DNA of 64,000 bases from positions 1 through 64,000 of the forward strand of contig QKDO01000096.1 of assembly GCA_003252075.1 (NCBI GenBank), given 5' to 3'. Within the stretch, counting starts at the first letter, position 1; every line of letters begins with the position of its first letter. The notes under the pieces were generated by a model that saw nothing but the letters and a program-made list of their open reading frames with translations, did not search any database and was not told the DNA's origin. Source of the stretch: Nitrospirota bacterium (lineage in GTDB: Bacteria > Nitrospirota > Thermodesulfovibrionia > Thermodesulfovibrionales > UBA6898). A program made the position numbers and the translations under genes. This document shows positions 32,067 through 58,242 of the stretch, piece after piece.

Positions 32067-32486
32067 TCAACTGAAATATCTATTCGCCATGTCTTCAAGC
32101 ACCGGAATGGGGATAAGGTATTGTTGCCCTTGGACCTTCCCTTCGATTCTGATGGGATAACAGCTCCCGAAACCCTTTTCTATCTCTGAAACGGGGAAAC
32201 GTTCGTCGCATGCCCTGCAGATTACAGAACCGCTGTCGAACCTGAAGCCACGCTTTTTGGGGTGGCATTTCATACAGGCATCGAGAAAAGAAAGAACCCG
32301 GCCGTCTATCTTTATGATAAAGAATCTGACGGTACGCCCCAGAGAGTTATAGGAGTAGAACTGCGGTACGCTTTCCTGCAGTGCGGCAATATCAACAGAC
32401 ACGACCGCCCCTTTCCGAACGGGTTCCGGATAGAGCGGCTGTTGCGCACAGGCCGCAATGCAAAAGAAAAAAAGCACGACGAGCAC
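32067..32486 (-). CDS. DUF2318-type secreted metal/Fe-S-related protein
   Basis: Signal/lipobox CIAACAQ; DGRVLSFLDACMKCHPKKRGFRFDSGSVICRACDERFPV. Confidence 0.75.
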   Translation of the reverse strand: MLVVLFFFCIAACAQQPLYPEPVRKGAVVSVDIAALQESVPQFYSYNSLGRTVRFFIIKIDGRVLSFLDACMKCHPKKRGFRFDSGSVICRACDERFPVSEIEKGFGSCYPIRIEGKVQGQQYLIPIPVLEDMANRYFS

Positions 32487-32547: not shown

Positions 32548-33078
32548 CTAGTGTTTATGCCCTTGTTCTCCCGACTGTTTCATCCTGTTCATTTTTCGCT
32601 TGTCCCTGATCATCCTCGTATCACCATACATATCCTCGTAGGCTGCCTTCATCGCTGTCTCAAAGTCGGCAGCCGAGCCACCGTTCTTCTTACTGAATGC
32701 CTCTGCGTCTTCCTTCTTTGCAAATGCCCATTTGCCCCTCTTCGACATGACACCGGGTTTTTCCCCGCCGATGACCCAGGAGGCTTTTTCGGCATCGATA
32801 AGATCCTTCGAATTGAAGTCCCCTACCATAATGCTCTTTGGCATTTTGTCGATGTTGTTCGCCAGGTCCACGGCAGCACAATGAATGCTGCAGACCGCAA
32901 CGGTTGTCCCATCGTCGTATTCTATCAGCATACGGGTGAAATCGAACATGCCCCGGTCCATGCCGCAGTATTTGCACTCCTTATGGAGAGGCACGTCACC
33001 TCTGTTCTGGGAAAAAGCAATCCCGGCAAGCATCAGACTGACCGCTACGACAAGAAAAATAATACTCTTCCTAACCAT
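32548..33078 (-). CDS. NosL family protein
   Basis: CKYCGMDRGMFDFTRMLIEYDDGTTVAVCSIHCAAVDLA; His-containing tail QGHKH. Confidence 0.85.
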   Translation of the reverse strand: MVRKSIIFLVVAVSLMLAGIAFSQNRGDVPLHKECKYCGMDRGMFDFTRMLIEYDDGTTVAVCSIHCAAVDLANNIDKMPKSIMVGDFNSKDLIDAEKASWVIGGEKPGVMSKRGKWAFAKKEDAEAFSKKNGGSAADFETAMKAAYEDMYGDTRMIRDKRKMNRMKQSGEQGHKH

Positions 33079-34260: not shown

Positions 34261-35064
34261 CTATACCTTTTTTGCGGCCGGCGGTGTCGGGATATTGGCG
34301 CCGTGGCACTCCGCACAGTTCTGCTGCGCCGTGATGCCCATGTTGCTGGCCGGCTTCCAAGAAGACTTTGCCTTGTAGGAGCCGTCTTTCCAGGCATTCA
34401 GATCCTTGACAAGATTGTGGGCAACGCTGGCAGCCACGCGGGCGCAACGATCCCTCCTCTCAGGGCTGCTGATAGCGTAACCGGACTCCTTCATCCACTT
34501 GCCTACCGACACATGGCAGAGGGGTGAATTGCTCGTGGTCTGCATAATCTTTGCCTTCTGCCTGGGCTCCTTCGGAGTAAATGTGGGAAGCGCCGCTTCA
34601 GAATACCACTGCAGAATATCCGCTCCGATTGCCGCTCCGTTCTCACACTCCGGCCCTGCGATGCGCGGTCCGATGATCGTGTTAGCAACGATGTTCGCAC
34701 CAGCGTTGGAGCCACAAATCGTTCCCCAGCCTGCCATCCCACCCTCAAGGAAAACAAAGGCGTCGCTGGGGAAAGATGTATAGGGTTCACCAACTTTTTC
34801 GCTGAGCTGACTGAATACACTGTTGATAACCGCTGCTCCACAAAATACCCGGTACCACTCAGCATAGGCGATCTCAGCAGTCTTCTCGGGGTCCAGCTTT
34901 TCATAGGGCCAGGGCCACTTTTCAGTGCCTCCCCCCTTGGCCTCTGCTTTAGAAAATACTCCCAATCCACCGGCGGTTAAGGCAGCAATTCCTGCAATGC
35001 CTGCCGCACCTTTAATAAGGCCTCTTCTCGAAAGACGTTCATCAAACAATTTTCCACCTTCCAT
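34261..35064 (-). CDS. Tat-exported split-Soret cytochrome c-like / C_GCAxxG_C_C family protein
   Basis: SRRGLIKGAAGIAGIAALTAGGLG; GGMAGWGTICGSNAGANIVANTI; SPLCHVSVGKWMKESGY; C-terminal CAECH. Confidence 0.7.
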   Translation of the reverse strand: MEGGKLFDERLSRRGLIKGAAGIAGIAALTAGGLGVFSKAEAKGGGTEKWPWPYEKLDPEKTAEIAYAEWYRVFCGAAVINSVFSQLSEKVGEPYTSFPSDAFVFLEGGMAGWGTICGSNAGANIVANTIIGPRIAGPECENGAAIGADILQWYSEAALPTFTPKEPRQKAKIMQTTSNSPLCHVSVGKWMKESGYAISSPERRDRCARVAASVAHNLVKDLNAWKDGSYKAKSSWKPASNMGITAQQNCAECHGANIPTPPAAKKV

Positions 35065-54502: not shown

Positions 54503-55137
54503 TGGGAAGCCGGGCAAAGACATTTTTTACGGAAGCAGATCAGCAGCGGATCGAAGAGGCTATTCGGACAGCCGAGTGCCGCACCATCGGAGAAGTAGCG
54601 GTCATGGTGGCTGAAGGCAGCGATGATTATGCAGACGCAGAGGTCCTCGCTGCGGTGTTTCTTGCCGGTTTTGTCTCCCTCCTCGTCACGGAGGCCTTCC
54701 TGAACGCCTCTCTCTGGCATTTCATCCTCATCACCCTGCTCCTCTTCGTTCCGGCGAGGCTGCTGGTCAGGAAACTGCCGGCGATGAAACTTTCACTTGT
54801 CAGCATGAAACGGAGAGAAACAGCAGTTCGCCATCGGGCAGTGAGGGCATTTTACGAAAAGGGTCTCGACAGGACGCGGCAGAAGACCGGCGTACTCTTC
54901 TTCCTCTCCCTGCTCGAGCACAGGGTCTGGGTGCTTGCGGATAAGGGAATCAACGAAAAGATCGATCAGAAAACACTGAATGCCTTTGCTCAGAATGTTT
55001 CCCGCGGGATCAGGGACGGACATGCCTGTGACGCACTCTGCCGGGCCATCAGGGATGCGGGGAACATCCTCGCAGAACACTTCCCTATTGCACCGCATGA
55101 CACGAATGAACTCCCTGACAAGGTCATAACGGACTGA
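54499..55137 (+). CDS. TPM domain protein
   Basis: FTEADQQRIEEAIRTAECRTIGEVAVMVAEGSDDY ... FLSLLEHRVWVLADKGIN. Confidence 0.85.
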   Translation: MMGSRAKTFFTEADQQRIEEAIRTAECRTIGEVAVMVAEGSDDYADAEVLAAVFLAGFVSLLVTEAFLNASLWHFILITLLLFVPARLLVRKLPAMKLSLVSMKRRETAVRHRAVRAFYEKGLDRTRQKTGVLFFLSLLEHRVWVLADKGINEKIDQKTLNAFAQNVSRGIRDGHACDALCRAIRDAGNILAEHFPIAPHDTNELPDKVITD

Positions 55138-55257
55138 TCCGACTGCTGTCAGCCATCTGTTTTCTTTTGTTTCCGGGAAGCGTTTGACACGCTTCTCGTT
55201 TCATGGTAATAAATTCAGATATGATTTTAAGTCTTTTGACGAAAGGAGGTGAATTCC

Positions 55258-55689
55258 ATGAGAAACGCAAATTTCTTTGTACTTTTTCTGGCGATCACGG
55301 CATTTTTCCTGGGAATGACCGTACAGACAGCAATTACTGCGGAAGAACGGAATGATGTCCTCTATTATTGCGACTGCGGGCCAGATTGTCACTGCAACTC
55401 CGTGAGCACCAAACCGGGCAACTGCAAGTGCAACAAGCCCATGAAATGGGGGCACGTCATCAAGGTCGAGGGAGACGAGGCCATCCTCTGCACCTGCGCC
55501 GAAGGCTGCAAATGCGCTATCGACGCTAATGATCCCACAAAGTGCGGGTGCGGCAACAAGGTGAAGCGGGTCAGCCTGAAAGGTACGGGCGTCTATTTCT
55601 GCAACTGCGGCGGCTCGTGCCAATGCAATACCGTTTCGGACCAACCCGGCAAGTGCAAATGCGGCATGGACCTGAAGAAGGTAGATTAA
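55258..55689 (+). CDS. Secreted Cys-rich (18 Cys) three-module protein, metallothionein-like
   Basis: AAGGAGGT then ATG 55258; signal peptide; three CxCxxxCxC...CxC modules. Confidence 0.75.
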   Translation: MRNANFFVLFLAITAFFLGMTVQTAITAEERNDVLYYCDCGPDCHCNSVSTKPGNCKCNKPMKWGHVIKVEGDEAILCTCAEGCKCAIDANDPTKCGCGNKVKRVSLKGTGVYFCNCGGSCQCNTVSDQPGKCKCGMDLKKVD

Positions 55690-55703: not shown

Positions 55704-55737
55704 AAAGGCAGAGCTGTACACGGCTCTGCCTTTCTTT
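55704..55737 (+). terminator. Rho-independent terminator
   Basis: AAAGGCAGAGC-TGTACACG-GCTCTGCCTTT-CTTT. Confidence 0.8.
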
Positions 55738-57420: not shown

Positions 57421-58242
57421 CTATACCTTCTTTTCCAACAGATCCGCCAGGCGCTCCAGATGCTTCTTTTCCTCCGCTGCAAGGAGCAGGAAGACCTTCT
57501 TCGCATCACCCTCCAGCCTCTGCTCCATCTTCAGGTAAAGGTCATAGGCATTGGCCTCAAGCGATATTGCAAACTCGAGAATCGTGGTAACGTCCTTTCC
57601 CTTTGCCCAGAGTAGAGCTTCAGCAACCTTTATCCCGCCTTCCATGATGTCATCGCGACCGGAAGGGAGGTCATCTTCCACCACCCTGCCTTCGGTAAAT
57701 CCCCGGTACAGTTCGGCAACGGTCTTTCCATGCGCGACCTCTGCATGTGCAAGACGCTGAAAGAGCTTTTTCGTTTCTTCATCCTGAAGGTGCTCATCCA
57801 TCCGGACATAGAACAGCCGGGAGCCGTCCTCGAGCATCCATGCGAGCCTGGCAAGCTCCTGTGGCTGCGCAGCGTCACCGAAATAGGCCATGCCCGCCTC
57901 CGGAGGACCCGAAGCAACAAGCCCTTCCCACGCCGCAATACCGCCCTGCATAGTGTAGACCTTCTCAAGACCGGCATCTGCCAGGATCGCCGCAGCAGCC
58001 CGGCTGCGCATGCCCGAGCCTCAATACGTTATAGCCGGCTTTGACCGGTCAAGTTCTCCGATGCGTTTATGCAGTTCCCCTATTGGTATCAGCTTGGCTC
58101 CTGCAAGATGACCGCGCTCATATTCCTTTGGCTGCCGCACATCGATCAGGTGGTAGTCATCAGGGTTCTTATCCTTCATGAAAACCCTCGCCTCTTCCGC
58201 AGTCATCGAACGGACGGGCCTGAAATAATCAGCAACTCCCAT
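57421..58242 (-). CDS. Rhodanese-ferritin/rubrerythrin-like fusion, probable selenoprotein (UGA at 58021-58023 at the catalytic Cys)
   Basis: DYHLIDVRQPKEYERGHLAGAKLIPIGELHKRIGELDRSKPAITY-U-GSGMRSRAAAAILADAGLEKVYTMQGGIAAWEG ... RLAHAEVAHGKTVAELYRG ... LEFAISLEANAYDLYLKMEQ ... LLAAEEKKHLERLADLLEKKV. Confidence 0.92.
57995..58007 (-). promoter_or_regulatory. Candidate bacterial SECIS hairpin of the rhodanese fusion
   Basis: Minus-strand GCAGC-CGG-GCTGC, lower stem extended by C/G pairs across a bulged U; apical loop begins 19 nt after the UGA with G at loop position 2. Confidence 0.6.

Follow-up and report, generated by a model that had tools for sequence, protein, structure and literature searches.

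A three-module, 18-cysteine protein of exported type in a Nitrospirota bacterium, a candidate metal-thiolate protein of the envelope

Among the genes carried by the 64,000-nucleotide stretch of Nitrospirota DNA analysed here (the window) is one which specifies a 143 amino acid protein (Table 1; stop included in the coordinates) with 18 cysteines, every one of them inside three modules of six. The question raised by this locus is whether such a protein holds metal ions in the cell envelope and, if so, which, or whether its cysteines are joined in disulfides. The initial annotation had described a secreted, putative metallothionein-like metal-thiolate protein, expressed from a gene without operon partners, with a near-perfect Shine-Dalgarno sequence and its own strong terminator. 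The gene signals, the isolated position, the export-type N-terminus and the cysteine count were all borne out, while the family assignment and the metal-binding role call for qualification.

The gene, its flanking signals and its N-terminus

The ribosome-binding site is near-ideal, with 8 nt separating GGAGG from the ATG at 55258. An alternative in-frame GTG at 55249 falls within the spacer of this site, which makes the ATG the likelier start. The terminator that follows the gene was absent from the list of a simple terminator scanner, probably because the stem takes up part of the T run. Upstream are LemA, TPM and TPM genes, the last of which ends at 55137, 120 nt before the three-module gene; since they share its orientation, read-through is possible. 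The hairpin in between may serve to terminate the preceding TPM gene. It overlaps a candidate promoter which was not called by the promoter scanner, and which is largely kept in homologous locus L046, partly in L047 and not in L048. A search of Rfam near the gene gave no match.

Table 1. Coordinates of the features of the three-module locus (positions in the window)
Feature	Position	Strand	Basis and remarks
Three-module Cys protein gene, exported type	55258-55689	+	ORF and translation; homologues in 21-row alignment A1
Possible promoter, TTGACA-17-TAATAA, TG before -10	55184-55212	+	Sequence; inferred
Upstream hairpin	55174-55198	+	Fold -14.8 kcal/mol, z -3.05
Ribosome-binding site AAAGGAGGTGA and spacer	55240-55257	+	Sequence; GAAAGG-GGTGAA kept in relatives
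Predicted signal peptide, residues 1-28	55258-55341	+	Sequence inspection; fast-evolving; lipobox in some homologues
Module 1, CDCGPDCHCNSVSTKPGNCKC, residues 38-58	55369-55431	+	Six invariant Cys
Linker, predicted beta hairpin KWGHVIKVEGDEAIL	55432-55488	+	AlphaFold strands; conservation, His66 nearly invariant
Module 2, CTCAEGCKCAIDANDPTKCGC, residues 78-98	55489-55551	+	Alignment with homologues and sister family
Module 3, CNCGGSCQCNTVSDQPGKCKC, residues 115-135	55600-55662	+	Followed by GMDLKKV; likeness to the C-terminal half of HMBD
Rho-independent terminator	55704-55733	+	13-bp stem, fold -21.8 kcal/mol, z -4.7

By inspection, the N-terminus has a basic start, then a hydrophobic core and a cleavage-like site, TAITA/EER, near residue 28. 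In the comparison with L047 the mature part shows strong purifying selection, at a dN/dS of 0.058 versus about 0.5 for the signal peptide; the product is therefore genuine and constrained, with an N-terminus that evolves in the manner of a signal peptide. The N-termini of homologues L050, L052 and L008 are lipobox-like, which supports an envelope location; these proteins would be envelope-anchored.

Cysteine modules, predicted scaffold and likeness to described families

The mature chain of 115 residues is 15.7% cysteine, with nine CxC pairs, and contains CxCx3CxC-x9-CxC three times. The spacer had been given as 9-10 residues; the motif itself was correct and the spacer is 9 in all three copies. 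When the mature sequence was shuffled 200,000 times with its composition preserved, this exact pattern appeared once in 121 of the shuffles, twice in 1 and three times in none. Modules 1 and 3 are clear, close repeats (hhalign E 4.5e-21), module 2 being more distant from the other two (E 1e-10 to 3e-12).

AlphaFold, run on 10 sequences, predicted a mature protein of strands and loops only (pLDDT 86, pTM 0.77), with no helix except in the signal peptide. No significant structural match to the model was found in the PDB or in a viral fold library, nor did the PDB give a significant match by sequence. Weak fold matches leaned towards SH3-like small barrels (Tudor, KOW, SH3) with E above 0.5 and were set aside.

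A fairly confident beta/loop fold of this kind could be held by disulfides, and the main rival explanation is an exported protein, structural or binding, whose cysteines form nine disulfides and hold no metal. The export-type N-terminus and an even number of cysteines, six per module, are in keeping with it, as are matches to the DsbA family and to VKOR in the genome; these mean that envelope thiols could be oxidised, and they count against a copper buffer. The CxC/CxCx3CxC spacing, however, is typical of metal-thiolate ligands, and together with the features of module 3 and of the relatives described below it leads us to regard disulfide pairing as unlikely.

Profile searches had been suggested as a check on the module. 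They assigned it to no named family: neither Pfam nor NCBIfam gave a match above threshold, and the matches to metal-binding families all stayed below cut-off, which again counts against a copper buffer. HMBD (PF19335) is the heavy metal binding domain of copper-exporting ATPases and CusB-type proteins. It matches the end of module 3 with 16.3 bits (E 0.0097), below its curated cut-off of 23.6 bits, and weakly matches 5 of the 21 homologues. Compared profile against profile, module 3 scored 21.5 with HMBD, whereas 200 shuffles of the columns with the cysteines fixed reached at most 12.7; the likeness therefore appears to exceed cysteine spacing in the C-terminal half of the module, although the protein does not qualify as an HMBD member. 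The resemblance lies in the Y-x-C start of module 3 and its PGKC-x-CGMDLKKV end, where PGKC-KCGMDL aligns, one residue shorter, with the PG-x-C-x-x-CGM-x-L of HMBD. The CPMHP half is absent, CNCGGSC or CDCGPDC standing in its place, and each module has six cysteines and CxC pairs against three cysteines and CxxC in HMBD. Modules 1 and 2 lack a convincing match, their scores lying inside the range of their own shuffles. The likeness of module 3 to a metal-binding domain also argues against disulfide pairing.

With the metallothioneins (SmtA/BmtA, MymT, plant PEC) the protein shares its high cysteine content and CxC motifs, and to that extent the earlier label was apt. Membership was not upheld: the metallothionein profiles were below cut-off or absent, and the protein differs in its signal peptide, its long mature chain and its predicted beta scaffold. 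Metallothioneins have few or no aromatic residues, whereas the mature part here holds 3 Tyr, 1 Trp and 1 Phe, as well as 2 His. Some homologues show a weak likeness to plant PEC metallothionein (best E 3e-5; 24.7 bits against a cut-off of 31.8). It is one of three points that suit a zinc (or cadmium) thiolate buffer or structural site, the others being that the cysteine pattern fits Zn as well and that His66 could be a ligand. The genes near relatives, NosL and SCO1/SenC, point to copper instead, and we consider a zinc protein rather unlikely.

Csp1, an exported Cu(I) store with many cysteines (PMC7558416), offers another comparison, the present protein being likewise cysteine-rich and of exported type. 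Csp proteins are four-helix bundles, in contrast to the strands and loops modelled here. NosL (PF05573) is also exported, often as a lipoprotein, is related to Cu(I) and is a genetic neighbour of relatives, but shows no sequence similarity to the three-module protein. The best reading of these comparisons is that the protein works like a metallothionein or an exported copper store, yet fits the definition of none of the described families compared.

Homologues, a two-module sister family and gene neighbourhoods

In 21 homologues of 41-86% identity all 18 cysteines are invariant, as are Tyr36 and several glycines. The sequences come from Nitrospirota and from MAGs labelled Proteobacteria, Deltaproteobacteria and Holophagaceae. 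The three-module family or its two-module sister was found in 35 of 396 sampled genomes of the window's phylum, and in 11 of 297 genomes of the phylum of the L052 MAG. The protein is thus not unique to the window's genome: one or other of the two families occurs in 20 genera of the phylum, and in other phyla. Plasmid and phage searches gave no match to the protein, and the literature search found no paper describing the family.

In homologue L019 an extra CxC pair is inserted in module 3, in line with a modular thiolate protein. Homologue L107 (5892-6326, minus strand) lacks a single cysteine of module 1 (CNCGPQCNSSSV), a change which speaks against a set of fixed disulfides. A divergent three-module subfamily (CPSPYLEPGxCxCG) is present in one genus (L040, 5943-6371; L113, 6036-6470; L115, 5993-6427). 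In every case its gene is preceded by one that is glycosyltransferase-like and a large one that is membrane-protein-like, with a NosL/two-module pair some 15 kb away. A 680-amino-acid open frame in genome G685 (L143) was rejected as a fusion: the three-module protein inside it begins with an ATG and a signal peptide of its own, and the metallo-beta-lactamase-like gene upstream is in another frame.

The sister family has the same scaffold. In the alignment, module 2 is swapped for a short, cysteine-free KAEKWE-like stretch sitting between two conserved scaffold segments. The window's genome carries a single three-module gene alongside two of the two-module type; a C81 fragment was rejected as a third paralogue, being a contig overlap with C146.

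NosL, a Cu(I)-binding protein, has a role in the assembly of N2O reductase (PMC6530538, PMC7558416); it takes a single Cu(I) (PMC7558416). Its gene lies directly beside the two-module gene, within about 0.5 kb and on the same strand, in 10 of 24 cases overall and in 8 of the 15 from Nitrospirota, against a chance expectation of about 0.2% per gene. The three-module gene adjoins NosL in only 2 of about 32 tested loci (p about 0.003; 0.0034 computed for 36 trials), and these neighbour statistics are optimistic and overstate independence, because the genomes are related and the sister-family loci in part share a single inherited arrangement. In the phylum of the L052 MAG there are two-module genes without an adjoining NosL (L153, 3719-4096; L154, 1232-1609; L157, 3848-4327; L158, 4021-4395), NosL being therefore a frequent, not a constant, partner of the sister family.

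The two three-module loci with NosL, in genomes G116 (L037) and G665 (L160), belong to two phyla and combine the gene with NosL, a small membrane protein, a MacB/FtsX-like permease and an ABC ATPase. The permeases are homologous (E 1e-36), and BLAST gave no match between the small membrane proteins. Such company is a further point against a protein held only by disulfides. SCO1/SenC lies about 3.4 kb from the L037 cluster and a thioredoxin-like protein is also near. These two genes, with the cysteine density and exported type of the protein, could suggest an envelope electron carrier or redox sensor (a thiol/disulfide relay) in which metal binding is incidental, but there is no thioredoxin-like CxxC active site or fold, and the repeated CxC clusters do not resemble known relays; we judge this explanation highly improbable.

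No conserved operon partner of the three-module gene was found across genera. Superfamily-level neighbour matches (regulators, histidine kinases and others) do not look orthologous and were discarded as partners. Most three-module loci, the window included, have no conserved metal-related neighbour, and the neighbour evidence comes from relatives; both points count against a copper buffer. In the window no metal gene adjoins, and the nearest NosL-family gene is 22 kb off.

Proposed function and further observations

A metal-thiolate role, as suggested in the initial annotation, is the best-supported reading of the sequence data, given CxC modules invariant across phyla, the partial likeness to HMBD, NosL and SCO1 near relatives, and the extra CxC pair of L019. 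That the protein binds metal of some kind through its thiolates, mainly copper or mainly zinc, is quite probable. On balance we favour an exported buffer or relay in the envelope, mainly for Cu(I), copper being the probable metal because NosL and SCO1 also handle Cu(I). The protein would be exported and stay in the envelope, presumably soluble in the periplasm here and lipid-anchored in some relatives. Its small beta scaffold would carry the three six-thiolate modules, each of which might bind soft metal ions, most likely Cu(I), as a small cluster. The copper so held may then be passed to, or spared from, chaperones such as NosL; cluster type and direction of transfer are, like the metal, what we infer. 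More tentatively, and with rather less than even confidence, the two- and three-module forms may together make up an undescribed family, spread over Nitrospirota and other phyla, that stores or relays Cu(I) on thiolates in the periplasm and has NosL and a MacB-like ABC transporter as partners.

To our knowledge, the described bacterial metallothioneins (such as SmtA and MymT) are few and cytosolic. The exported copper stores known so far (Csp1) consist of helical bundles. If the copper reading is true, a conserved, exported thiolate-module family linked to NosL would be a distinct way to hold envelope copper, and a family left unnamed by current profile libraries, in lineages that are mostly uncultured, would be given a testable function.

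Elsewhere in the window, the NosL-family exported protein (32551-33078, minus strand) lies near an FtrD-like Fe-S protein and a C_GCAxxG_C_C redox protein (32070-32486 and 34264-35064, both minus strand), a possible metal/redox cluster. Downstream of the three-module gene, on the other strand, is a gene for a rubrerythrin-domain protein (57421-58011), with a rhodanese-like stretch before it. In genome G113, L043 (4041-4754, plus strand) specifies a YtkA-domain protein in which CKCGKDCKCEHC-like units are repeated at the N-terminus; this is another cysteine-repeat envelope protein, and its gene adjoins a two-component system and a two-module gene.
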